From: an uncultured Erysipelotrichaceae bacterium
GTDB taxonomy: Bacteria; Bacillota_I; Bacilli_A; RFN20; CAG-826
Reading direction: 5' to 3'
NCBI GenBank assembly: GCA_900321535.1
Contig: ONWJ01000165.1
Coordinates: forward strand, 1-11,894
DNA: 11,894 bases
Shown: piece after piece, positions 1 to 11,669 of the stretch
How positions within the stretch are numbered: the stretch's first letter is position 1
Layout: every line of letters begins with the position of its first letter
Notes under the pieces: generated by a model
Told to the model about the DNA's origin: nothing
Databases searched by the model: none
What the model saw: only the letters and a program-made list of their open reading frames with translations
Translations under genes and position numbers: made by a program

Positions 1-27
1 CTGCAATTCCAGATCGATAGGGGATAG
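1..27 (+). CDS. C-terminal end of an upstream gene, probably a paralogue of the next gene
   Basis: The frame starting at base 1 reads LQFQIDRG and then TAG at 25-27, one base before the ATG at 29. These residues resemble the end of the next protein (VQFKIVREM), and the DNA is also similar (ctgcaattccagatcg against gtgcaattcaaaatcg). The simplest reading is the 3' end of a second SipW-type exported protein lying in tandem with the gene at 29. Only 8 codons are visible, so the identity is an inference from this short match and the one-base spacing. Confidence 0.55.
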   Translation: MQFQIDRG

Positions 28-28
28 T

Positions 29-1102
29 ATGGACAAGCGAGGGAAACTCATATTGGCGATGTTAATTGCCTCCACTGGTTTATCCGCGGGGGCAGTTTCG
101 TTTTCTTTGGCGTGGTACGCGAATGCCTCTACTGTTGGGGTGCGATATATTCAGATGGATATACGCGCTGAAAGGGCGTTAGAGATCAAACGCACCGAAG
201 AAGAATATAGCGAATACACTTCTGGCTATGACCGTAAAGACCTCAATCAAGTCGCGGTTTTCGATGCGGTTTCAACGATGTTTGAAGGCGACTGGAATGG
301 CGAAAACGCTGCAGAACCCACCTTTTTTACCTACAAAGCCTTCTTTGTTCCGGATTCTGGCGTCCCTTATCGCGAGGCGATGCACGGTGGTTTTTTGATG
401 CAGCATTTTTATCTGAAAGCCGATGACGATGTCTATGTTGGACTCGATCCGCTTTTATGCTCTATCACCCCAGACGAGGCTTTTAATTTATCGCGCGCGA
501 ACGCGTTACACGGGCAAAAGGGTTACGAGGATTTCACGGTTGAGGAAATCTATCAACGCCTCAACGCCCTCCAAAACGCGATGCGCGTGTCCGTATACGA
601 TGTTTCCGAACATCAGCATTATATCTTCGACCCGCATAAAGAAGGGGAGACCTATTATGGGGGCATCCTCGATAATGACGGCGAAGATCCTTATTTTGAC
701 TACTACACCCAAGATGGCATCTCCAAAGAAGTCGTCTATGGGGAATTCAATGACCCGTCTTTGATTCGTTACAAGCAGACGCCTCTAGAAGAAGATATCC
801 CGTTAGTTGGGGAGAGAACTTGCTTCAATGCCGCGCATAAAAAAGGCGTCTATGTCTTCGATGAAGAAGCTTCCTATCTAGCAGGGCTACGCTTCAAGGA
901 AGAGCCTTCCATCGATTGGCGGACGCTGCCGACGGATTCTAAATACAAAGAGAATCCATTCATCCTGAAATGCTATCGCGGCGAGCCTAAGGAAATCGTG
1001 GTCAGCATGTATCTAGAAGGCTGGGACAAAGACTGTGTCAATGCGATTATGGGAGCTAGCTTCCACGCTCAAGTGCAATTCAAAATCGTAAGGGAGATGT
1101 GA
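29..1102 (+). CDS. SipW-type exported/surface protein
   Basis: 357-residue protein with a basic N-terminus (MDKRGK), a hydrophobic segment at about residues 7-28 and a likely cleavage region around SLAWYANAS. This layout is typical of signal peptides processed by SipW-type peptidases (TasA/camelysin-like substrates), and such a peptidase is encoded in the same operon at 5119. The mature part is acidic, rich in Tyr, Phe and Asp, and has no second membrane segment, so it is probably outside the cell. The C-terminus has a YLEGWDKDC motif (about residues 328-336); from memory this resembles the end of other SipW-dependent proteins. The mature part has four Cys. An AGGGG ribosome binding site (19-23) lies 5 nt before the ATG. 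The stop abuts the next gene. I recognise no enzyme fold; a fibre or matrix subunit, or an accessory to one, is a guess. Confidence 0.75.
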   Translation: MDKRGKLILAMLIASTGLSAGAVSFSLAWYANASTVGVRYIQMDIRAERALEIKRTEEEYSEYTSGYDRKDLNQVAVFDAVSTMFEGDWNGENAAEPTFFTYKAFFVPDSGVPYREAMHGGFLMQHFYLKADDDVYVGLDPLLCSITPDEAFNLSRANALHGQKGYEDFTVEEIYQRLNALQNAMRVSVYDVSEHQHYIFDPHKEGETYYGGILDNDGEDPYFDYYTQDGISKEVVYGEFNDPSLIRYKQTPLEEDIPLVGERTCFNAAHKKGVYVFDEEASYLAGLRFKEEPSIDWRTLPTDSKYKENPFILKCYRGEPKEIVVSMYLEGWDKDCVNAIMGASFHAQVQFKIVREM

Positions 1103-1104
1103 TT

Positions 1105-2631
1105 ATGGGACCTTATTTCGAGTATCTGCGTGAAATGATTATCCGAGTCTTCGGTGACCTCGGAAAGTTTTTCGGCAAAGCCTTTGGTTCGCCTTGGGCT
1201 GATGTTCCGACCAATTTCAGCGATTACAATTCCTATTTAGCCACCTATTCCGCCTCATTCGGCTTCTGGGGATGGTTCTTCTGGGTTTTGTTCTTGATTC
1301 TTTTCCTCGGCGTCATCGGCGGCATCCTTTTCTTGCTCTTCATCTTGCTCCGTAAATACATCCGCTTCGTCAAGAAAGAGCTCGATAAAGATGATCTCCG
1401 TAAGCAAGTCGAGACCTTGAACTATGAGCTTTATCAAGCCACCCAAGAGAAAAACCGCATCCTCAATCTCAAAGTCGGTTACATGGGCTTGAAGACAGAA
1501 GATGGCAAGAAGGAAGAAGAGGTCAAAGAAGGCGAAACGCCGATCCTTGATACCCGCTTCCCCAAACTCATCTCGGTCGACCAAGCGTATCGTGGCACGA
1601 ACATGGATATCCCATTCCGTCCGGGCCTCTCCTTAGAAGAAATCTGCAACGCGTTCCGTAACTTTGCGGCGTCTAACCTCGGTTTATTCTACAAAATCGA
1701 CGTCATTCGTCAGTTATTCGCTGGTATTGCAACCTCCAAACTCATCATCTTGGAAGGTATCTCTGGTACTGGTAAAACCTCGATGGCGTACGCCCTTGGC
1801 AAATTCTTCGTCCATGATTCTGCGATCATCGCGGTCCAACCATCTTGGAAAGACCGTTCCGAACTTCTTGGTTACTACAACGAATTCACCAAGAAATTCA
1901 ATGAATCCGAATTCTTGAAAGCCTTGTATGCGACGGGTTACCGTAAAGACCCATCCATCATCACCCTCGACGAAATGAACTTGGCGCGTATCGAATATTA
2001 CTTCGCCGAATTCCTCTCGGTCATGGAAATGAGAGATACCGGCGCCTGGGAAATCGACTTGATCCCGAATGTGGTGGAAGGCGACCCAGCCCTTCTTAAA
2101 GACGGCAAACTCGCCATCCCGCAGAACGTCATCTTCTTTGGCACCGCGAACAACGACGACTCCACCTTCACCATTTCCGATAAGGTTTATGACCGTGCTA
2201 TCTCGCTCTTCTTCGACGATAAGGGCCGTCCATTTGATGCGCCAGCCCAAGAGCCGATGCCCATTGCTTATGGCCAGCTCAAATCCTTGTTCGATGAAGC
2301 CATCCGTCAGAACCCAATCTCTGAATCGATGATGAAGAAATTCTCGGACCTTGATGACTTTGTCATTAAGAAATTCAAGCTTGCCTTCGGTAACCGTATC
2401 TTGAAGCAACTTGAAACCTTCATCCCAACCTATGTCGCTTGCGGCGGCAAAGAAGTCGATGGCTTCGATTTCATCTTCACCAACAAGATCTTGAAGAAAT
2501 TCGAATCCCTCAACATCGCCTTCTTGAAGGATGAGCTCAAGCAGCTCGATGCCTTCTTGGATAAGACCTATGGCAAGGGCACCTTCCCAATGGCCCATAA
2601 CTACATCGAAGGACTCATCAAGAACAATTAA
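1105..2631 (+). CDS. Membrane-anchored McrB-like AAA+ ATPase (AAA_5 type)
   Basis: 508 residues from the ATG at 1105. A GTG at 1099 is also in frame, but GGGAG at 1092-1096 sits 8 nt from the ATG and only 2 nt from the GTG. A long hydrophobic segment (about 53-82) is followed by a charged, probably helical stretch (about 84-120) and then the ATPase domain. Walker A is GISGTGKTS (218-226, Lys224), Walker B is IITLDEMN (285-292, Asp289-Glu290), sensor 1 is at FGTANN (Asn349), and Arg364 in VYDRA is a candidate arginine finger. The segment VQPSWKDRSELLGYY between Walker A and B is characteristic of the McrB/AAA_5 group. McrB proteins couple NTP hydrolysis to an endonuclease partner; here the membrane anchor and the absence of a recognisable nuclease or methylase argue against classical restriction. 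The next gene, 10 nt downstream, is the likely partner. Codon choice is strongly C-ending (atc, ctc, ttc), unlike the more mixed use in the gene at 29. Confidence 0.85.
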   Translation: MGPYFEYLREMIIRVFGDLGKFFGKAFGSPWADVPTNFSDYNSYLATYSASFGFWGWFFWVLFLILFLGVIGGILFLLFILLRKYIRFVKKELDKDDLRKQVETLNYELYQATQEKNRILNLKVGYMGLKTEDGKKEEEVKEGETPILDTRFPKLISVDQAYRGTNMDIPFRPGLSLEEICNAFRNFAASNLGLFYKIDVIRQLFAGIATSKLIILEGISGTGKTSMAYALGKFFVHDSAIIAVQPSWKDRSELLGYYNEFTKKFNESEFLKALYATGYRKDPSIITLDEMNLARIEYYFAEFLSVMEMRDTGAWEIDLIPNVVEGDPALLKDGKLAIPQNVIFFGTANNDDSTFTISDKVYDRAISLFFDDKGRPFDAPAQEPMPIAYGQLKSLFDEAIRQNPISESMMKKFSDLDDFVIKKFKLAFGNRILKQLETFIPTYVACGGKEVDGFDFIFTNKILKKFESLNIAFLKDELKQLDAFLDKTYGKGTFPMAHNYIEGLIKNN

Positions 2632-2641
2632 TTAAGCGAAA

Positions 2642-5122
2642 ATGGCCGACTCCTCTAGCGAAAATCTGTTTAAGAAGTACGTTGAGAAGATGAAGCGCCT
2701 CACCGATAACGGAGACGAGGAGCAGATTCTCAACGAGCTTTCCAGCGGCAAAAACACCTACATGAAGATGAGCCGTCTGGAGACCTCTTCTTATGACCCG
2801 GCTTGGATCAATAAGATCGAAGGCGTCATTTTCGATTTAGGAGAAATCATTGCCAATCCGCGTGAAGTCACCCAGTCTATCGGTGATATCTCTCCGATTG
2901 AATTGGCCAAGAAAATCAAAGGCGAATCGGTCCAGCACCTTGCTTCTCATACCCAATACATCAAAGAAGTCGATGATTATGGCAATGTCATCCCTTCGAA
3001 AATCCTCTCTTTCTATAACGAAGAGAATATCATCACCTATGAGAACCGCTTCATCGCGACCTTCATCCGTAAATTGTTGTTATTTATTGAAAAACGTTAC
3101 GAATTCGCGGTGAAATTCGCTCGCCTCCATGACCAAGAGACGTTGTATCTAAAGAACCATTCCTTTGTCGATGGGGCAGAAGTCGAGATCGAGACCAAAG
3201 TCAAAATCGTCTCTGAGTCTCAAACCGCGGCCTCGAAGGCTAACAACGCTTATTTCGCCCGTATCGAAGAAGTCCGTGAATACGTCCGTTATTACTATAA
3301 CTCCCCGTTCATGAAGATCTTCAAGACGGAGAATAACGTCCGTAATCCGATCGTTTTGACCAATATTCTTCGTAAGAACCCGAAGTATCGTCATTGCTAC
3401 GAAGTCTATAAATACCTCGAATCCTACACTGGATTAGGTATCGACTATCGTATGGATGAAAACTACGACTTGCTCACCGACGAAGAACTCGCCGAACTCA
3501 ATTTCTCGTTGTTTGGTTCCTATTTGTCGGCGCATGGCAAGAAACGTTCCAATAACGTCAAACATCGCGTCAAGATCTATAAACCAAAGGTCCTCACCTC
3601 CATGGATGATGAGACCTTTGTCTATGGTCCATTGCTTGAAGGGCCGCTTCAATTCGTGCGCGTCGATGAAGGATATCAACGTTATCTCGAGTCGATGGTG
3701 CCTCAAGATCTCCCGCTTCATCCGCATAAGAAAGTCCGCGAATACTACGCCGAGCAGTATCAAGAAAGAAAAGATTACCGCAGATGGCTGCAAGAACGCG
3801 ACGCTTTGCTGCGCAGAAAGCAAAGAGAAGTCCGCAACTTCGAGCTTGAGGTCGAAGATGTTTTGGCCAAGCGCGAAGCCGAGAAACTTCGTCTCGCCGA
3901 ACTCGAGAAAGCCCTCATCCAGAAAGAAGAGGAAGATGCCCTCAACCGTGTCCGTCGCCAGATCATCGAAGCTGCTCTGCGCGACCGCATGATGGATACG
4001 CCTCCGGATGAAGCGTTTGATCCTGCCAACCATATTGGCCCGATGCTTGGAGAAGGGGAACCGGTTATCCAAATCCATCAAAGCGATGTGGAATGGGATC
4101 CAAACGACATCATCCCGAACCAAGAAGTTCCAAATTACTTCCATCCTGGCAATCATACCGGGGAAGGCGCTTTGGATTCTTATCATGAAGGCACGCTTAC
4201 GCCTCCTGGAGAAGAAGTCGAAGAACTCAAGTTTAAAGATCCTTCTGAATACGAAAAGAAAGAGCCAATTCCAGAAGAAGCTCAACCCGTTGAAACTCCT
4301 GTTGAAGAGGAAGAAATCTTTGATGATGACGCCCTCATCGACGTCATGGACGAGCAAAAGAAGAAAGAGGAAGAGCTGGTCGCCGCAATCGAAGAAGCGC
4401 AAGAAACCAAACCGAAGCCTGCTCCTGTCCGTTCGCTTCTTGGCACCTATGGAGTTAGAAACGGCAAGCAAATCCGTTATGTCGTTCGCAAGATCCGCCC
4501 AGATCAACACGCGAACGGTCATTTGGTCGATCCAAAGCAACCTAGAACGGTGGAGGAGCCAGTAGAAAATAAACCGTTGCCACCTGAAGAAGCGCTTTTG
4601 CAATCCCAAGATCAGGTCTCTCCCGTTGATGGAAGCATCCTGATAGAAAGTGCAGCGGAGGCTTCAAATAACGTTGAAGTCAATGACCAAGTAGAGGCTT
4701 CTCCTTTTGCCGCTCAAGAACAACCTGGCGAGCAACTCTCCACTCCTCCAAGGAAACGCCGCTACGTCGTCCGCAAGATCCGTCCAGATCAACACGCGAA
4801 TGGACATCTTATCGCGCCGCTTCCGCCAACGATTATCAAAATCCCTGCAAAAAAGGCGAATTCCCCAGAATCCCTGCAAAACGCGGGTGAATTTGGAAAA
4901 GAGCCTGGTTCTGCAGCGAATTCTTCCGGAAACCTTGCAGAATCCGCTTCAATGAAAAAAGAAAAGCCAACGGAAGGATCTTTCGTCGTCAAAACCTTAG
5001 AAGGGTATTACGTCGAAGACGGCAAATATACGATGAACAAATCGGAAGCCAAAGTCTTCCATGATTTCAACAAAGCCTACGCCATCAAAGTGGAATGCGG
5101 TGGAAAGGTGGTCAAGATATGA
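2642..5122 (+). CDS. DUF2357-like protein with coiled coil, acidic linker and repeated basic motif; probable ATPase partner
   Basis: 826 residues, no signal peptide or membrane segment, so probably cytoplasmic. The N-terminal third (about 40-330) carries features I associate with DUF2357 proteins: TYENRFIATFIRKLLLFIEKR-like text, then NPIVLTNILRKNPKYRHCYE with YLESYTGLGIDY. DUF2357 proteins commonly pair with McrB-like ATPases and carry a C-terminal PD-(D/E)XK nuclease. I see no convincing nuclease motif here; instead there is a charged coiled coil (about 364-450), an acidic Pro/Glu linker (about 451-605), two copies of RYVVRKIRPDQHANGHL (612-628 and 707-723), and a small C-terminal unit (about 779-826) with GYYVEDGKYT and GGKVVKI. 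It starts 10 nt after the ATPase gene with only a weak ribosome binding site, suggesting coupled translation. The last bases overlap the next gene as ATGA. The family call is from memory and moderate; a scaffold or adaptor role is inference. Confidence 0.6.
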   Translation: MADSSSENLFKKYVEKMKRLTDNGDEEQILNELSSGKNTYMKMSRLETSSYDPAWINKIEGVIFDLGEIIANPREVTQSIGDISPIELAKKIKGESVQHLASHTQYIKEVDDYGNVIPSKILSFYNEENIITYENRFIATFIRKLLLFIEKRYEFAVKFARLHDQETLYLKNHSFVDGAEVEIETKVKIVSESQTAASKANNAYFARIEEVREYVRYYYNSPFMKIFKTENNVRNPIVLTNILRKNPKYRHCYEVYKYLESYTGLGIDYRMDENYDLLTDEELAELNFSLFGSYLSAHGKKRSNNVKHRVKIYKPKVLTSMDDETFVYGPLLEGPLQFVRVDEGYQRYLESMVPQDLPLHPHKKVREYYAEQYQERKDYRRWLQERDALLRRKQREVRNFELEVEDVLAKREAEKLRLAELEKALIQKEEEDALNRVRRQIIEAALRDRMMDTPPDEAFDPANHIGPMLGEGEPVIQIHQSDVEWDPNDIIPNQEVPNYFHPGNHTGEGALDSYHEGTLTPPGEEVEELKFKDPSEYEKKEPIPEEAQPVETPVEEEEIFDDDALIDVMDEQKKKEEELVAAIEEAQETKPKPAPVRSLLGTYGVRNGKQIRYVVRKIRPDQHANGHLVDPKQPRTVEEPVENKPLPPEEALLQSQDQVSPVDGSILIESAAEASNNVEVNDQVEASPFAAQEQPGEQLSTPPRKRRYVVRKIRPDQHANGHLIAPLPPTIIKIPAKKANSPESLQNAGEFGKEPGSAANSSGNLAESASMKKEKPTEGSFVVKTLEGYYVEDGKYTMNKSEAKVFHDFNKAYAIKVECGGKVVKI
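4475..4525 (+). repeat. Copy 1 of a 17-codon repeat (RYVVRKIRPDQHANGHL)
   Basis: Encodes residues 612-628 of the protein at 2642-5122. It is identical in protein to copy 2, but 8 of the 51 bases differ and every difference is synonymous. That pattern points to selection on the peptide rather than a recent DNA duplication. The motif is basic and flanked by acidic and proline-rich linker. Confidence 0.9.
4760..4810 (+). repeat. Copy 2 of the 17-codon repeat (RYVVRKIRPDQHANGHL)
   Basis: Encodes residues 707-723 of the same protein, starting 95 residues after copy 1. It is followed by a proline-containing stretch (APLPPTIIKIPAKK) and sits before the small C-terminal unit. Confidence 0.9.
5104..5111 (+). 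promoter_or_regulatory. Ribosome binding site that decides the signal peptidase start
   Basis: AAAGGTGG lies 7 nt before the ATG at 5119. An in-frame upstream ATG at 5095 has no well-spaced site, so 5119 is the preferred start. That start also gives an ATGA overlap with the upstream stop, the same arrangement as at 6030 and 7568. Confidence 0.6.
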
Positions 5123-6033
5123 GCGAGAAAAAGCAGAAGAAGCCCAAATCCAAAGTCCGCCGCATTTTAGAATGGACTTTCATCGGCATCGTCGGTGCGC
5201 TTTTCATCGCCGTTGCTGCCGGAACCATCGACGCCAAAGTCCATGAAAAGGATAACTTTGGTCAGCCAATTCGTTTTGGAACAGGTTCCTTCTTGGTTTT
5301 GACCAACTCCATGGAGCCAGAATATAAAGTCAATTCCGCGATCATCACCTTTAAAAAGAACCCGGATACCGTCTATGCGGACTGGAAAGCGGGCAAGCAC
5401 GTTGACATCACTTTCTACGATGGCTTCACGGCGAGTAATTCGTTCACTGAGCCAACCAAAACCGGCTCTCAAAATATCCCCAAGACCAACCGCACGACCG
5501 TCAATCGTTCTGGCAGCCTTCCGATGGTCATCACCCACCGTGTCTTCGATATTCATGTCGATGAAAGCAAAACCGCAGGACAAGGACGTTATTATTTCTT
5601 CCTCGAAGGTATCAACGAAGATGCCGCGACATCTTTCGGTGCTTCCGACCAATATCAGGTTATCACCGAAAACTTCATGCTCGGCGTGGTCGTTCTCAAT
5701 TCCCCGGCTTTGGGCGCGGTTTTCCAATTCGTCGCCTCTCCATGGGGACTATTCGTTTTGTTATTGATCCCTGCATTATATCTTGTCATCTCTTCGATGG
5801 TGGACATCGTGGTTACCATGAAGACCAACCAAGAAGAGCAGGAACAAAAGCCAACCCCAGCAAGCCTTACCGAACTTTCAGCCAAAGACCGCGAAAGACT
5901 CAAACAAGAGATGCTCCAGCAAATGCTTGAGAAGAAGCAGCAGGAGAGAGAACGTCAAGCCCAAGAAGAGCAACAAGAGGCTAATCAAGAGCAGCAATCT
6001 AACGAAGAGCAACACAAGGAGGATGAAGCATGA
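5119..6033 (+). CDS. SipW-type (ER-type) signal peptidase I with Gln/Glu-rich tail
   Basis: 304 residues from the ATG at 5119. It has an N-terminal membrane segment (about 14-36), then NSMEP with the probable nucleophile Ser64, and ITHRVFDI with His140 where bacterial-type enzymes have Lys. A Ser-His arrangement defines the ER/SipW class of signal peptidase, which removes signal peptides on the outer face of the membrane. Asp168 or Asp177 in the NED...GASDQ region could complete the catalytic site. A second membrane segment lies at about 212-237, followed by a cytoplasmic tail of about 65 residues that is very rich in Gln, Glu and Lys and looks like a coiled coil. The exported protein at 29-1102 and its upstream paralogue are the likely substrates, making this a dedicated processing enzyme. 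The tail could tether the peptidase to other operon products; that is inference. Confidence 0.85.
   Translation: MSEKKQKKPKSKVRRILEWTFIGIVGALFIAVAAGTIDAKVHEKDNFGQPIRFGTGSFLVLTNSMEPEYKVNSAIITFKKNPDTVYADWKAGKHVDITFYDGFTASNSFTEPTKTGSQNIPKTNRTTVNRSGSLPMVITHRVFDIHVDESKTAGQGRYYFFLEGINEDAATSFGASDQYQVITENFMLGVVVLNSPALGAVFQFVASPWGLFVLLLIPALYLVISSMVDIVVTMKTNQEEQEQKPTPASLTELSAKDRERLKQEMLQQMLEKKQQERERQAQEEQQEANQEQQSNEEQHKEDEA
6016..6022 (+). promoter_or_regulatory. Strong ribosome binding site for the EAL gene
   Basis: AAGGAGG inside the 3' end of the signal peptidase gene, 7 nt before the ATG at 6030. It supports efficient coupled translation at the ATGA junction. Confidence 0.7.
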
Positions 6034-7571
6034 AATCGAAACGAATCCTGTTCATCCTGACGACGGCCTCCGGTGCCCTTTACGGCGCGATTATCATCAC
6101 CTCCGCGATTCTTTTTGGAATCGGGGTGCTTGATGGTCAACCATTCTGGTCCATTTTCGTGCTTGTCATGCTCACGATTGCGGCGGGTCTATTCATGCGC
6201 TTCATCACGCGTTATCTTTCCCAAAGAACGTTGTACGATTCCTTGCAGCTTGAAAACCTTTATACCCTTGGTCAGCGTTCTTCCTTCTATAACCTTTACG
6301 CCTTCCAAACTCGTGTTGTCGCGAAACGCTTAGGCATCCAATACATCAAGCAGCCGCAGCATATCATCGCTTTTACCAGCGCGGTCCACGGCTCATCTGC
6401 TGCCTATGCAAGAAGCTCCGAACAAAACGACCTCAACTCCCGCACCGCAACGGAGCTCAACCGCATTTTCAGTTCCAAGAAAATCAAAATGAGCCGCAGA
6501 AACAACGTATTCTGCTTCGATAGAGGCGTCTTCTTAATCTATAACTTCGGCATGAACAATCAGGAGATCAAGGATTTGATCATCACCATCCGCGATGCCA
6601 TTTATGAGATCTCCCAAAACCATGTCTACCATATTCAGGTTCAACCGTTCTTCGGCGTGGTCGAAGCCAAGCCAAACGAATCCTTGCTCAGCCAAATCGA
6701 CAACGCGACCCTTACCCGTGATTATGCCGAACGCAACTTCGAATCCTTTGCCTATTACACCCCGAACATGAGGAAAGAGGTTTCCTATAACCAAATCGAG
6801 GAAATCATCGCCGCCTTCGAGGCTGGAGAATTCGTGGTCTATTATCAGCCGAAGTTCTCTCTTAACAAGAAAGAATTCATTTCCTCGGAAGCCTTGATTC
6901 GTTGGAACTCTCCAAAATATGGCTTATTAGGCCCGGCGAAATTCATGGAGAAGATCGAAGCCGCAGGCTTGGTCCATGAAGTGGATACCTATGTCTTCCG
7001 CGCCGTCTGCGCAGACTTAAGCGAAGCCAAACGTAGGGGTAGAAGGGTACTTCCTGTTTCCATTAATTTCTCGTTGTTTGAGTTCTACGCGATGGACTTC
7101 TTAAGCTTTGTCATGGATACGATCCATTTCTATGAAATCGATCCTTCGTTGATTGAAATTGAGATTACCGAAACCACCTCTCAAGCCAACCAATTCCTCT
7201 CCTTATCCACGATCCGTAAACTCAAAGAAAACGGGTTACGCGTTTTGATGGATGACTTCGGCATCGGCTATTCAAATATCGGAAACCTCCGCAAAATCCC
7301 CTTCGATGCCATCAAAATCGATAAATCTTACATCGATGATATCGTTGAAGACGTCAAGGCCAGAGAAATCGTCAAGACCTTGATCACCATGGGCAAGACG
7401 GTCGGTCTAGAAGTCATCGCCGAAGGCGTTGACTCCCAAGAGAAGATCGATATTCTCCGCCGCGCGAAATGCGATACCATCCAAGGCTTCTATTACGCAC
7501 CGGCGTTATCGAAAGAGAAATTCGATGCCCTTCTGCGTGAGAATCCATTTGAAGGAGGCAAGAAAAAATGA
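6030..7571 (+). CDS. Membrane c-di-GMP phosphodiesterase (degenerate GGDEF + intact EAL)
   Basis: 513 residues. Two membrane segments (about 6-31 and 36-58) are followed by a GGDEF-like fold (about 75-235) whose signature is replaced by DRGVF (164-168), so it should not make c-di-GMP. The C-terminal EAL domain (about 250-505) keeps every known catalytic position: Glu287 of EAL, Asn346, Glu378, Asp408-Asp409 in DDFGIGYSN, Lys429, Glu465 in AEGVD and Gln485 in QGFYY. From Asn346 onward the spacings between them equal those of characterised EAL enzymes such as RocR. It should hydrolyse c-di-GMP to pGpG at the cytoplasmic face of the membrane, with the degenerate GGDEF domain possibly acting as a nucleotide sensor. 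It overlaps both neighbours by ATGA, so it is co-expressed with the signal peptidase and the nucleosidase-like protein. Confidence 0.92.
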   Translation: MKSKRILFILTTASGALYGAIIITSAILFGIGVLDGQPFWSIFVLVMLTIAAGLFMRFITRYLSQRTLYDSLQLENLYTLGQRSSFYNLYAFQTRVVAKRLGIQYIKQPQHIIAFTSAVHGSSAAYARSSEQNDLNSRTATELNRIFSSKKIKMSRRNNVFCFDRGVFLIYNFGMNNQEIKDLIITIRDAIYEISQNHVYHIQVQPFFGVVEAKPNESLLSQIDNATLTRDYAERNFESFAYYTPNMRKEVSYNQIEEIIAAFEAGEFVVYYQPKFSLNKKEFISSEALIRWNSPKYGLLGPAKFMEKIEAAGLVHEVDTYVFRAVCADLSEAKRRGRRVLPVSINFSLFEFYAMDFLSFVMDTIHFYEIDPSLIEIEITETTSQANQFLSLSTIRKLKENGLRVLMDDFGIGYSNIGNLRKIPFDAIKIDKSYIDDIVEDVKAREIVKTLITMGKTVGLEVIAEGVDSQEKIDILRRAKCDTIQGFYYAPALSKEKFDALLRENPFEGGKKK

Positions 7572-8302
7572 TCATGATCGTTGGCTCTACCCACGACGAC
7601 ATCCTCTATTTCTCATCCATCATCACCGGAAAGAGAGAGGAAGTCGTTTTGGACCATATCCGAGTGGAGATCGGGAAGATCTTCAATCAAGAAGTCTTGC
7701 TGGTGAAGGATATCTACACCAACTACCTTTCCTCCGCGATTACCCTTTATCTCATTCAAAAGTATTACATCATCCTTTGCTTTGCCGTCGGAAGGTGTCT
7801 AGCGTACACCAAAGACTGGCAAATCGGGCAGATTGCCTTATCTCAGCATACTTATTCAGGGGACGTTGACCAGATGGCGGAAGCCGATGCTAGACTTGGC
7901 CAAATCCCGGGATTCCCAGCCTACTACGTAACCCAAGAAGATATTCTTGGCTATCTGCAAAACGCGTTTGAAGCGCGTACCTTCTCAGAGGTGCATCGCG
8001 CCGTCTATTTCTCCTCGAATCATGTTTATTCGGCTCGAAATGAACTCGAGGCATTATCTGCGAATGATAGATTATTCGGCGCGAGCGAGCGAGTGGTGCT
8101 AGAAAGCACGTTCGGTGGAATCGCTTTATCTTGCTATCTTTTCCACGTTCCTTTCGTAGCCGCGAAAGTCATCACCGGATTCCTTGATCAAAAGCGCACC
8201 GTCGAAGAATATGCGAAGTCTTTAAGCAAATACGCGGATATCGGCAAAGCCATTGTCGCGACCATCGGTGAGATTTCGCGTAATGACGTTATTGGAGGTT
8301 AG
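7568..8302 (+). CDS. MTA/SAH nucleosidase-like protein lacking catalytic residues (probable pseudoenzyme)
   Basis: 244 residues, close to the usual length (about 230) of 5'-methylthioadenosine/S-adenosylhomocysteine nucleosidase (MTAN, PNP_UDP family). Family landmarks are visible: an N-terminal IMIVG strand, VEIGKI, SGDVDQMAEADARLGQIPGFPAYY (matching the DVDxxxFGYExGQxPGxPA region), and IALSCYLFHVPFVAAKVI (matching IAHVCxxFxVPFVVVRAI). Aligned by eye to E. coli MTAN, all three key residues are changed: Glu12 to His9, Glu174 to Thr181 and Asp197 to Gly204. The last two keep the same 23-residue spacing. The GD(S/A)F loop is also absent. Nucleosidase activity is therefore unlikely; a nucleotide-binding or structural role beside the c-di-GMP proteins is inference. 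GAAGGAGG (7551-7558) lies 9 nt before the start; ATGA overlap upstream, 2 nt gap downstream. Confidence 0.72.
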   Translation: MIMIVGSTHDDILYFSSIITGKREEVVLDHIRVEIGKIFNQEVLLVKDIYTNYLSSAITLYLIQKYYIILCFAVGRCLAYTKDWQIGQIALSQHTYSGDVDQMAEADARLGQIPGFPAYYVTQEDILGYLQNAFEARTFSEVHRAVYFSSNHVYSARNELEALSANDRLFGASERVVLESTFGGIALSCYLFHVPFVAAKVITGFLDQKRTVEEYAKSLSKYADIGKAIVATIGEISRNDVIGG

Positions 8303-8304
8303 TT

Positions 8305-11300
8305 ATGGCGAAAAAGAAACAAAATAACAAAACCTTCACCTTATCCTTCTTGTTCAATGTTGGAACCATCATTCTGGTCGCGTTGCTTGGCCTATTGGCC
8401 GCGGTTTTGATTGTCTTCGCGACCTTATGGGGCAAGACTCGTCAATCGGTCTATCTTGTCTTGCTGATCGTCTTATCATTGGCCTTGTTGATCGCTTTCG
8501 GCGTCGCCATGTTCTTCATCACCAAGTTGCTAAGAAGATATTACATGGATGGCTTATTCAAGATCACGTTGACCAATTATCATGCGATCAACCATGGCAA
8601 AACCCAGTTGACCCCATATCCGGTAACCTTCGTTGAAGAGTTCTCCGCCTTAAACGAAGAAATCGATAAACTTAACGTCACCTTCAAAAACATCTCCTTC
8701 GCTTATGCTCATTCGGATTATTCCAATTTAGAGCTTGAGCGTGTGGAAGGACTTGATGATGTCATCACCTACGCTTCCTTCCAAAAGCAACTTACCAATA
8801 TCATCGCCAACGCGATGTCATTCCGTAACTTGTTGGTGGAAGTCTATTATGAGATTGGCGAAGAGACCCTCAGCAACGAGGAAATCAACAAATTCGTCAA
8901 GGAAATGCGCAAGAAATTCGCTTCTTTCCCGAATACCTTATGCATCTTAGCGGAGGACCGCACGAGCTTCTATTTCTTCATCCCACGCATCGATTCGCTT
9001 TCCGTCATACAAGAGAAATTGACCTTGTTGATGCCGGCTTTAGCCATCAATAAGCACACGATGGATGGCTTTGTGTCCTTGCCTGCCCATTTCTCGGTCG
9101 TTTGCTATCCATTCTCTTCTTTGCACGAACTTCTTTCTGACCTTCGTTACGCGAAACGTCAAGGGAAACTCGCCGCGGTTTATCTTCCAAACCGTATCCA
9201 TTATCCTGGACCAATCGACGTTGGCCGCAACGCGATGTACCTCAACCAGATGTCGAAGATCTTGTTCAATCTCCGTTCTTTGAATGCGGATTCTGCCAAC
9301 AAAGAAGAGATCCGCCAAGGCATCGCTGAAACCTTAACCGCGCTTACCAAAGAGCTTCGCTTTGAATCCGCCGGCATCGTTGCCTTCGGACAAGAGGAAG
9401 CTGGCTTTGCGGTTTTAGACCATGTTGGATCCAACAAGCCATTCTCCATGGGCATGCGTATCGAAGACGATATCATGGCCGCGATCTCCGCTTCCGAAGA
9501 CAGTGATCATTCTTTCTATTTCTCAAGCCGTGACCACGTTACCATCGCTTTAGGCAGGGCGTGCGATCGTTTTGGCATCTCTAGCGGCTTCTTCTATTCC
9601 ATCGTCAGGGAAGGCAAGAAGATTGGCTTCATCTTCTTCGTGAATACTTCTGGCGACCATTTCATGGATTCTTACTTGAAAGAAGCGTTGACCGCAGCCT
9701 GCTACCACATTTCTTCTAGCTTCGTCATCGGACGCGTCATGGAAGGGATGGTGGAATCCAATCGTTTGCTTGATTCCTTCTTGGCCTATGAAGACGCGGC
9801 TACTTACCAAGTAGAACGCGGCTCCTTCCGCATCGTTAGTTATTCTTCTAACTTCCCGCGTGTTGTTGGAATGGAACCTCCAGTTGGAGAGGTCTGCCAC
9901 CGCGCATTCTTTGGTTTAGCCACGCCTTGCCGCGGCTGCCCGCTGGTGAAAGGGAATCGCCGTACCGTTCAAATCAATGGACAAACCTATTCCGTCTCCA
10001 TGACCATGGACGCGAAAAGAGGTGTCAATTCCACCTTGCTTTTAAAGCGTATCAATGAGGCGGAAGAAGGGCTTGACCGTTATGACCATGACCTATTAAT
10101 CAATTCCTTCTATTCCTTATTAGAAGAAGCCAAGAAGCATTATCTTGTCGGTGATAAGGGCTATATCTTATTGCTTCAGGTGGCGAACCATGTTCAACTG
10201 TTAGAACGCTTTGGCTCAGAAGGCTTGCTCCTTGTCTACCGTAACTTCTTAGAGAAGATCAAAGGCATGATGAAAGGCGCAGAACAAATCTACGCCTTCG
10301 ATTCTCAAACCTTTGGATTATTCTTGCCAAATGATGGTCAAATTGACGTCTTGAATACCTGCGAGGTCATCTTTACCTTCACCAAAGGCATCACTTATCA
10401 AGGCGAGGATAAGTACGATCTTCAACTCAACTATCGACCAATGTCTTATCCATCTTCTTATGCGACCGCGAACGACTTCTTCCGTCATGTTTACCGTCAA
10501 CTCAAAGAAGATAAACGTGTGCAAAACGGCAAAGACATCGTCTACTTCGATGATACCGACTATGTCCGTCCAGCATCTAGACGTGAATTCATCCTCTCCG
10601 TCATCGACGAGCAATTCGGTAAAGAGACCTTCCGTGTCTCTCTCCAGCCGATGGTTCGTTCTGGCACGAAAAAGATCTACGGCGCAGAAATTCTTCTCCG
10701 TATCCAAGACGAATACCGTCATATCGTCTTTAACCCGGATGAACTCGTCCGTGTCGCGGAAGAAAACGGCAAGATTCCTCTGATTACCCGTGCCTTGCTC
10801 CGTTATGTTGCGAACTTCTATCAAAACACCTCTGCCAAAGTATTAGATGACATGGGCTTCATTCGCATCTCACTCAACACCGAGGTGTCCTTGTTCACCG
10901 ATCCTTCGTTTGCAGACGACCTCGCCTCCTTTATCAAGACTGCGCGTCTTCCAAACGAATTCCTCTCCTTCGAAATTCCAGAGAAGGACGCCAGCGATCG
11001 TTTCGAGGAGTGCAAACGCATCGTTAAGATTCTTCGCGCGAACCACTCCGAGGTTGTCATCGACCAGTATACCGGACGCTTCTTGAGCTTGGATAGGGTC
11101 CTAGAACTTGGTATCCACGATATTAAGGTTTCCCGTAACTTGGTCACCAACATTGACTCCGATCAACGCAAACTCAAAGATATCAAAGCCTTGCTTGATG
11201 AAGCCAAGGCCAAAGGCATCTCAGCGACCGTCGTCGGTGTTGAGAACATCGACCAATACAACCTCCTCCATCAAATCAATCCAAAGCTCAATCTTCAGGG

Positions 11301-11373
11301 CTATTACTTCTATCGACCGCTCGAACGCGACGCGCTTATCGATGCGCTCCGTAGCAACCGCTCGGTTGGGTAG
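8305..11373 (+). CDS. Large membrane multi-domain GGDEF/GAF/PAS/GGDEF/EAL protein, apparently non-catalytic
   Basis: 1022 residues; GGAGGT (8294-8299) lies 5 nt before the ATG. Order: two membrane segments (about 18-41 and 48-72); a degenerate GGDEF-like domain (about 150-297, signature DRTSF at 218-222); a GAF-like region (about 315-475); a PAS-like region (about 490-590) with Cys531, Cys542 and Cys545 in CHR...PCRGCPL; a second degenerate GGDEF (about 603-745, signature DSQTF at 666-670); and a degenerate EAL domain (about 770-1015). The EAL domain keeps Glu795 (as EIL), Asn858, Glu890, Asp920, Lys941 and Gln998, but the second Asp of the DD pair is Gln921 and the AEGVE glutamate is Val977, so metal binding and hydrolysis should fail. 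It may bind c-di-GMP or another nucleotide and act as a receptor. It is the last gene of the operon, followed by a hairpin terminator. GAF and PAS assignments rest on pattern and position only. Confidence 0.8.
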   Translation: MAKKKQNNKTFTLSFLFNVGTIILVALLGLLAAVLIVFATLWGKTRQSVYLVLLIVLSLALLIAFGVAMFFITKLLRRYYMDGLFKITLTNYHAINHGKTQLTPYPVTFVEEFSALNEEIDKLNVTFKNISFAYAHSDYSNLELERVEGLDDVITYASFQKQLTNIIANAMSFRNLLVEVYYEIGEETLSNEEINKFVKEMRKKFASFPNTLCILAEDRTSFYFFIPRIDSLSVIQEKLTLLMPALAINKHTMDGFVSLPAHFSVVCYPFSSLHELLSDLRYAKRQGKLAAVYLPNRIHYPGPIDVGRNAMYLNQMSKILFNLRSLNADSANKEEIRQGIAETLTALTKELRFESAGIVAFGQEEAGFAVLDHVGSNKPFSMGMRIEDDIMAAISASEDSDHSFYFSSRDHVTIALGRACDRFGISSGFFYSIVREGKKIGFIFFVNTSGDHFMDSYLKEALTAACYHISSSFVIGRVMEGMVESNRLLDSFLAYEDAATYQVERGSFRIVSYSSNFPRVVGMEPPVGEVCHRAFFGLATPCRGCPLVKGNRRTVQINGQTYSVSMTMDAKRGVNSTLLLKRINEAEEGLDRYDHDLLINSFYSLLEEAKKHYLVGDKGYILLLQVANHVQLLERFGSEGLLLVYRNFLEKIKGMMKGAEQIYAFDSQTFGLFLPNDGQIDVLNTCEVIFTFTKGITYQGEDKYDLQLNYRPMSYPSSYATANDFFRHVYRQLKEDKRVQNGKDIVYFDDTDYVRPASRREFILSVIDEQFGKETFRVSLQPMVRSGTKKIYGAEILLRIQDEYRHIVFNPDELVRVAEENGKIPLITRALLRYVANFYQNTSAKVLDDMGFIRISLNTEVSLFTDPSFADDLASFIKTARLPNEFLSFEIPEKDASDRFEECKRIVKILRANHSEVVIDQYTGRFLSLDRVLELGIHDIKVSRNLVTNIDSDQRKLKDIKALLDEAKAKGISATVVGVENIDQYNLLHQINPKLNLQGYYFYRPLERDALIDALRSNRSVG

Positions 11374-11380
11374 GATAAAT

Positions 11381-11410
11381 GAAATGGACGGCTCAACGGC
11401 CGTCCATTTC
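11381..11410 (+). terminator. Hairpin terminator at the end of the operon, possibly bidirectional
   Basis: GAAATGGACGGC (11381-11392) pairs perfectly with GCCGTCCATTTC (11399-11410) around a 6-nt loop, starting 7 nt after the stop at 11371-11373. The following T-tract is weak (gttatata). It lies between convergent genes, so it may also serve the possible small gene at 11427-11669 on the minus strand. Confidence 0.8.
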
Positions 11411-11426
11411 GTTATATAAGCAGACT

Positions 11427-11669
11427 TTATAAAAGATCCCTTTTTCCAAGCAATAAGGTCATATGATGGGGAATTGTAAGGATATCGCCATTTTTGCCGA
11501 CGTTATCATCGCCGATTTTGATGCACTTTGTAGGACCATAATGTTCAGGATGAACCATAACGGTTTTGGTTGATTTGGCGTTGCTGTTTTGCCGTATTGG
11601 CATACCCAGAAAAAGCACATGCGGAGAGTTTTTCTTCGGCTTTTCCAGAAAGCGTCTATTAATTGGCAT
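11427..11669 (-). CDS. Possible small hypothetical protein
   Basis: 80 codons on the minus strand in a region that no other gene explains. Codon choice resembles the neighbours (atc, ggc, gtc, gat) and AGGAG (11682-11686 on the plus strand as ctcct) lies upstream, though at a long 12-nt spacing. The protein is basic, with a mix of short hydrophobic strands (HVLFLGMPI, KTVMVHPEHYG, GDILTIPHHMTLLLG) and no membrane segment or signal peptide. I do not recognise the family. It sits downstream of a minus-strand terminator, so it would need its own promoter, and I see no good one. It could be a remnant of a larger gene. Confidence 0.4.
   Translation of the reverse strand: MPINRRFLEKPKKNSPHVLFLGMPIRQNSNAKSTKTVMVHPEHYGPTKCIKIGDDNVGKNGDILTIPHHMTLLLGKRDLL

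Follow-up and report, generated by a model that had tools for sequence, protein, structure and literature searches.

A probable c-di-GMP-controlled operon for surface-protein export and assembly, built on a CoCoPALM core, in an uncultured Erysipelotrichaceae bacterium

Gene content and layout of the operon

Contig ONWJ01000165.1 of the uncultured Erysipelotrichaceae bacterium in assembly GCA_900321535.1, a stretch of 11,894 nucleotides analysed at its full length and referred to here as the window, carries an operon that joins a surface protein, a McrB-like ATPase with its DUF2357 partner, a SipW-like signal peptidase and proteins related to the turnover of cyclic di-GMP (c-di-GMP). The window is an entire contig of a draft genome of 1.32 Mb. 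Seven complete genes (g1 to g7) on the + strand occupy positions 29 to 11373 and either overlap or are separated by no more than 10 bases: g1 and g2 overlap by 4 bases (GTGA), g3/g4, g4/g5 and g5/g6 share 4 bases each (three ATGA junctions), and the gaps between g2 and g3 and between g6 and g7 measure 10 and 2 bases. The last 8 codons and the stop of a further gene on the same strand (1 to 27, reading LQFQIDRG-stop) resemble LQFQINRAL, the C-terminus of the surface-protein gene directly upstream in the related locus L032, and the operon extends upstream past the contig edge. Downstream it ends at a terminator-like hairpin (11378 to 11413, + strand; -25.2 kcal/mol, z -6.65) that none of 200 shuffled sequences equalled. 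The layout is that given by an earlier sequence-only reading of the window (seven full genes and a partial one in one direction, three ATGA overlaps and a terminal hairpin), the partial gene being the 27-base remnant. Promoter-like matches within the window were not above chance (10, against 12.5 expected from shuffles) and an Rfam scan of the window returned no match. A short open frame follows the operon on the - strand (11427 to 11669).

The first complete gene, g1 (29 to 1102, + strand), encodes a surface protein of 357 residues with a single N-terminal hydrophobic segment that would act as signal or transmembrane segment, as judged from the open reading frame, its hydrophobicity and a 39-member alignment. 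It had no Pfam or NCBIfam match over the cut-off, and a profile search against solved structures returned nothing (best E 0.52). Its signal peptide appears to be of the SipW type by eye only, and no g1-type substrate matched the TasA/camelysin or SipW-signal models over the cut-off.

ATPase, DUF2357 partner and signal peptidase

The product of g2 (1099 to 2631, + strand, GTG start) is a McrB-like AAA+ ATPase, matching AAA_5 over the cut-off (7.6e-5), the McrB structure 6hz4 (E 0.0011) and the PADLOC candidate model PDC-M26A (4.1e-40). The Walker A (GISGTGKTS) and Walker B (LDEMN) motifs are present, and the N-x-D motif, which reads NND in the window, is found in all 41 aligned ATPase rows. The N-terminus consists of a hydrophobic stretch (residues 51 to 88) followed by a charged, coiled-coil-like helix, with no Pfam match to a modified-base-binding domain.

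The partner protein g3 (2642 to 5122, + strand) combines a DUF2357 region, similar to the N-terminal domain of McrC, with a coiled coil and a long charged tail. The DUF2357 score in the window lies just under the cut-off (20.5 against 23.3 bits), and the family was matched in 20 of 39 orthologues. Profile searches of g3 against solved structures gave strong matches only to charged coiled-coil-like chains, via the tail, whose length is highly variable among orthologues (the L108 protein reaches 2331 residues). In the window the tail contains a 16-residue repeat, YVVRKIRPDQHANGHL, twice (4478 to 4525 and 4763 to 4810). No Pfam nuclease family was found in any of the 39 orthologues (E 0.01), no nuclease or methylase family over the cut-off in the seven window proteins, and no protease domain in g2 or g3 in Pfam/NCBIfam profile scans. 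A restriction system was considered and rejected, since no nuclease was recognised in the g3 family.

The signal peptidase g4 (5119 to 6033, + strand, with an alternative start at 5095) is SipW-like, of the endoplasmic reticulum (ER) type, with a match to the NCBIfam SipW model NF046067 that stays below the cut-off (2.4e-9; 37 bits against 190). The Ser-His pair of ER-type peptidases is kept throughout the family (Ser in 32/32 and His in 32/32 proteins, L067 and L068 being left out as positional mis-assignments). Of 79 ATPase loci, 73 have a recognised peptidase nearby. SipW-type peptidases are not confined to the neighbourhood of the ATPase: in 31 genomes TIGR02228 gave 49 matches, of which 24 have an ATPase match within 6 kb. 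At four Ruminococcus loci (L142, L143, L147 and, in R. albus KH2T6, L144) a single frame of 973 to 998 residues unites DUF2357 and a coiled-coil-like stretch with a SipW-like peptidase, which retains the Ser and His motifs and contains a GDxN stretch. Since fusion usually reflects joint action, the signal peptidase is very likely where the McrC-like partner works.

The g2-g3-g4 core fits the CoCoPALM clade, as judged by the features published for it. In the relevant passages, Bell et al. (2024; eLife, PMC11090510) mention this clade only in passing, as one branch of the Type IV restriction systems, and defer its description to a later paper.

An intact EAL enzyme and two degenerate proteins

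The last three genes had been read as an active EAL enzyme followed by two apparent pseudoenzymes, and the catalytic residues agree with this. The g5 protein (6030 to 7571, + strand) contains a transmembrane segment, a degenerate GGDEF-like region and an EAL phosphodiesterase domain (3.3e-61). Its catalytic residues, which we take to be E, N, E, E, D, D, K, E and Q, are intact in the window, and 28 orthologues read ENEEDDKEQ; the first half of g5, used as a protein query, retrieved 27 relatives, all with an EAL domain. The membrane protein g7 (8305 to 11373, + strand) has hydrophobic segments and degenerate GGDEF-like and EAL domains; it matches EAL at 7.1e-40 and contains no GGDEF motif. Seven of the nine key EAL residues are kept, with the second Asp and the third Glu lost (ENEEDQKVQ in 11 orthologues), and the LapD model gave a match below the cut-off (2.8e-7). 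The g7 protein is likely a c-di-GMP receptor.

The protein encoded between them, g6 (7568 to 8302, + strand), had been counted in a c-di-GMP module, and this was not borne out. A c-di-GMP protein is ruled out by its methylthioadenosine/S-adenosylhomocysteine (MTA/SAH)-nucleosidase fold (PF01048, 4.7e-8; 6po4, 2.9e-8; TIGR01704, 1.7e-10, below the cut-off). Taking the catalytic acids to be, presumably, Glu12, Glu174 and Asp197, the first and last places hold no Glu and no Asp, respectively, in 26 of 26 family members, and the Glu174 place holds Asp or Glu in 25 of the 26; L068 and L070, positional mis-assignments, were left out of this count. From their sequences, g5 thus looks active, g7 looks receptor-like, and g6 looks like a dead enzyme of another kind.

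Conservation and other forms of the locus

A relative of the ATPase was found in 44 of 61 genomes; within the window's genus, 29 of 31 genomes have one, the window's own included. Among 40 related loci the order ATPase, DUF2357 protein, peptidase, EAL gene (or a gene at its place) and g6 family is kept in 25; of the others, 8 run off the end of a contig and 7 have variant arrangements. The conserved order proposed for testing in the sequence-only reading is therefore a feature of many genomes. One of the 25 (L063, contig C194) belongs to the genome of the window itself, as a paralogous second operon whose gene at the EAL position is degenerate and has lost the EAL motifs.

The ATPase and DUF2357 genes had also been expected to travel with the c-di-GMP genes. 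They do form one tight operon with them in this lineage, but a similar core occurs without c-di-GMP genes in order-level relatives, and c-di-GMP therefore looks like a lineage-specific controller of the core. This second form comprises small surface proteins, the peptidase, an ATPase of 600 residues and DUF2357, and continues with an ABC transporter ATPase and permease and then secreted proteins (gene names read from the sequences); a peptidase was recognised in 11 of the 12 loci L071 to L082. At L072, L074 and L076 to L080 the ABC transporter pair and large secreted proteins take the place of the c-di-GMP genes in a CoCoPALM-like arrangement.

A pattern search of named genomes gave at least 583 ATPase relatives, of which the best 80 were retained. 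Among the matches listed, the nearest named relatives are draft genomes that carry the labels Erysipelotrichaceae, Bacillales or Bacilli and in many cases come from samples of the rumen or other gut sites, and cultured species are represented by Ruminococcus albus and Paracholeplasma vituli. Two loci filed under Gammaproteobacteria (L109) and Omnitrophota (L134) carry Firmicute-type operons and are probably misbinned contigs.

The neighbourhood of EAL genes is wider than the window's family. An EAL-domain gene, active or dead, lies on the same strand within 8 kb in 43 of 50 ATPase loci with full flanks (L112, in which the open-reading-frame script found no ATPase frame, was left out). In the set L131 to L170 the same holds for 22 of 28 full-flank loci, or 21 of 26 when the two members of the window's own family, L133 and L140, are removed; with 130 EAL matches per ~41 Mb in 20 such genomes, chosen by hand, fewer than one would be expected in 28 loci. 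At the more distant loci the EAL genes occupy other places and have other architectures, being either intact proteins, often of ~760 residues, or small dead ones of ~250 to 300 residues, with both kinds present at L157, L161 and L169. Ruminococcus-type loci (L137, L142 to L144, L155, L162 and L163) have a stand-alone EAL protein of ~250 residues with most key residues lost, just upstream of CoCoPALM, and a scan of four of them (L142, L144, L155 and L162) found no riboswitch.

c-di-GMP-I riboswitches upstream of the operon

In all six scanned loci of the window's kind a c-di-GMP-I riboswitch aptamer lies upstream of the operon. A scan of 61 genomes, with stricter filters at which weak matches are lost, gave 71 such aptamers. 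When at least 3.5 kb of upstream contig was available, every operon with an active EAL (17 of 17) had a same-strand aptamer upstream, whereas a single one of the 26 loci without an active EAL did. This locus, L046, is one of six among the 26 (L046, L058, L064, L066, L081 and L087) that are cut downstream before the EAL place. Requiring 6 kb of upstream contig gives 13/13 and 0/21. Fisher p values are 4e-11 (3.5 kb) and 1e-9 (6 kb), for rows that are not independent.

The closest controls, the EAL-less paralogous operons L055, L056, L057 and L059, have no aptamer (0/4); the last three share genomes with aptamer-positive operons and therefore serve as internal controls. Four EAL-less loci of the window's family, scanned alongside loci from outside it, were likewise negative (0/4), whereas L032, L035, L036 and L037, which lie closest to the window on the ATPase tree, all have an aptamer. 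Outside the window's family aptamers were found at 11 of 24 scanned loci, in 9 of 11 with an intact EAL and 2 of 13 without (p 0.003; rows related). Aptamer positions include 5692 to 5772 in L092 and 6188 to 6264 in L135. A scan for c-di-GMP-II riboswitches was uninformative, with none in six genomes and none in the control genomes as well.

Seemingly closed c-di-GMP circuits in four species

Four genomes (G009, G010, G013 and G014), representing four species and 86 to 95% complete, have a small inventory of c-di-GMP genes. Each has two GGDEF matches, adjacent to each other and away from the operon. Both EAL matches are g5 and g7 of the operon (in G013, g7 is on a second contig), and both aptamers found belong to it as well, the second preceding three further genes for secreted or surface proteins (a final part that G013 has on a separate contig). 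These four genomes gave no match to HD-GYP, and none of 31 genomes matched PilZ. The GGDEF motifs of G009 are intact; its only GGDEF matches are two diguanylate cyclase genes that overlap by 4 bases (L088, 7989 to 10261).

G028 has two GGDEF matches and lacks an HD-GYP match, and its two riboswitches both belong to the operon. Four genomes of the window's genus (G001, G005, G015 and G029) have neither a GGDEF match nor a visible operon with an active EAL, the G001 operon being cut after the peptidase. The GGDEF counts exclude G023.

Interpretation

Taken together, we consider it probable (roughly 0.7) that the window is most of an operon for the export and assembly of surface proteins, controlled by c-di-GMP and built on a CoCoPALM core. 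The sequence-only reading had proposed a c-di-GMP-gated surface-assembly machine rather than a restriction system; the riboswitches of the relatives, the DUF2357-peptidase fusion and the lack of any Pfam nuclease family in the DUF2357 proteins (39/39) support this, the assembly itself being a step that we infer.

Several observations weigh against this interpretation. The window begins inside the operon, so that its own leader lies outside the assembly and the riboswitch is known from relatives only, and the first upstream gene had no match in the window's genome, in a search made without a positive control. The same genome has 13 GGDEF, 7 EAL and 2 HD-GYP matches, and c-di-GMP therefore has other jobs there too. 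Likewise, 28 of the 71 aptamers lie near a fetched ATPase locus and 43 do not; c-di-GMP riboswitches therefore have other targets in many genomes. The association of riboswitch and active EAL has exceptions: outside the window's family, L161 and L164 have an active EAL and no riboswitch, and L136 and L149 have a riboswitch and no EAL nearby. L065 combines a riboswitch with EAL genes outside the activity pattern, on a flank too short for counting. On the ATPase tree, from which loci missing the relevant flank and duplicates of one contig were left out, the active EAL changes six times, and the riboswitch changes in parallel in at most four of six independent pairs and in the opposite direction in none, which is not significant (median p 0.125). 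Regarding the direction of control, the 3' strand of the aptamer can in some leaders alternatively pair with a segment ahead of a T run, with p <=0.05 in only 18 of 47 sites; such pairing hints that c-di-GMP would be an ON signal. On the side of export, the SipW-signal model TIGR04088 did not match g1 of the window and gave one weak match, below the cut-off, among 39 orthologues. The third catalytic residue of the peptidase is Asp in 23 of 32 proteins, and the window, with Ile at this place, is among the other nine (Ile, Thr or Ala). Finally, no peptidase was recognised beside the ATPase at the more distant loci L083 to L087.

Our data are consistent with the following mechanism. Diguanylate cyclases encoded outside the operon would supply c-di-GMP, which would bind the c-di-GMP-I riboswitch in the leader and thereby permit transcription. 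Sec would export the surface proteins via their special signal peptides, and the SipW-like peptidase of the operon would process them. At the same membrane site, the membrane-anchored AAA+ ring would be activated by the DUF2357 protein, whose coiled coil may reach the peptidase, and the ring would probably pull, sort or release the precursors, leading to their assembly into a surface layer or fibre. By degrading c-di-GMP, the EAL protein g5 could act as a brake, and the degenerate g7 may read c-di-GMP, giving feedback; g6 is perhaps a nucleoside-binding sensor that aids g7.

The alternative that survives best, though we consider it unlikely, is that the ATPase and DUF2357 protein form a machine for quality control or extraction, by which misprocessed surface precursors are removed, instead of driving assembly. 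AAA+ rings commonly extract membrane substrates, and the fusion places the DUF2357 partner at the peptidase; no protease domain was found in g2 or g3, however, and sequence hardly separates extraction from assembly. Clearly less probable are two unrelated modules within one operon, with a c-di-GMP-controlled SipW and its surface proteins on one side and an ATPase/DUF2357 pair with a separate job on the other. The pair does occur without c-di-GMP genes, and at L083 to L086 without a recognised peptidase, but DUF2357 and peptidase are one protein in the four Ruminococcus loci, and a peptidase is near the ATPase in most loci of both forms (73/79, and 11/12 of L071 to L082). Least probable is a defence system, in which a McrBC-type module would use the surface proteins, peptidase and c-di-GMP genes to sense phage or kill the cell: the PDC-M26A match and the placement of the family in a Type IV restriction branch (PMC11090510, passages on the clade) favour it, but the lack of nuclease and methylase families over the cut-off in the seven window proteins and, in Pfam, in the 39 DUF2357 orthologues, an ATPase relative in nearly all genomes of the genus, unlike a patchy defence island, and the linkage to riboswitch and surface proteins make it very improbable.

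Beyond the window, we regard as an even chance the broader proposition that CoCoPALM is an unrecognised class of AAA+-powered machines for surface-protein secretion and assembly in Firmicutes, a restriction-type motor at the membrane coupled to a SipW-type peptidase, which in several lineages would be the main or only output of c-di-GMP riboswitches. McrB-type motors are known as parts of DNA restriction systems. If true, the c-di-GMP-controlled export operon would represent a new use of the McrB fold, tied to surface proteins, fused to a peptidase via its partner and switched by c-di-GMP, and would provide a concrete target for c-di-GMP in gut Firmicutes. The question can be tested directly in the four genomes whose circuit seems closed, each with a single operon, a single cyclase pair, two riboswitches and one EAL enzyme that is intact.

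Comparison with known systems

The core shares with CoCoPALM, in the passages that describe the clade (Bell et al., 2024), an NxD McrB-like motor, a McrC-like coiled-coil partner and a linked signal peptidase; the hydrophobic stretch and charged helix at the N-terminus of g2 may correspond to the FtsB-like transmembrane segment and coiled coil of the clade. In contrast to the locus and relatives described here, those passages mention no surface substrates, c-di-GMP genes, riboswitch or peptidase fusion, and the terms "c-di-GMP" and "EAL domain" do not occur in the main text of PMC11090510. The sequence-only reading knew of no described system with this gene set; this does not hold for the core, already named as CoCoPALM, but it does for the link to c-di-GMP and surface proteins, which is absent from those passages.

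A dedicated SipW-type peptidase that adjoins its surface substrates is also found in SipW-TasA of B. subtilis and sipW-bsaA of C. perfringens, as outlined in part of PMC7395162, and in C. perfringens SipW is needed for secretion and polymerisation of the BsaA filament (PMC7395162). Unlike TasA/camelysin, the surface proteins of the window match no such model. The C. perfringens sipW-bsaABCRSD operon differs in being controlled by a two-component system, and no ATPase/DUF2357 pair or EAL gene is mentioned for it in the passages on this operon (PMC7395162).

Compared with McrBC of E. coli (6hz4), the AAA+ fold and the DUF2357 partner are alike; E. coli McrB has an NxxD motif, whereas the window has NxD, a membrane segment and no recognised nuclease or base-binding domain.

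Pairs of an active and a dead EAL protein are known from systems of the LapD/FimX type, which have in common with the window a membrane c-di-GMP receptor derived from degenerate GGDEF/EAL domains beside an active enzyme. In contrast to these, no periplasmic protease target was seen in the window, and the output is another.

A full-text literature search (titles and abstract openings, with few subscription papers) found no description of McrB/DUF2357 linked to SipW or c-di-GMP. With respect to the systems above, the new elements are the kept gene order, the association of riboswitch and EAL gene, the seemingly closed circuits, the EAL genes beside distant CoCoPALM loci and the fusion of DUF2357 to the signal peptidase.

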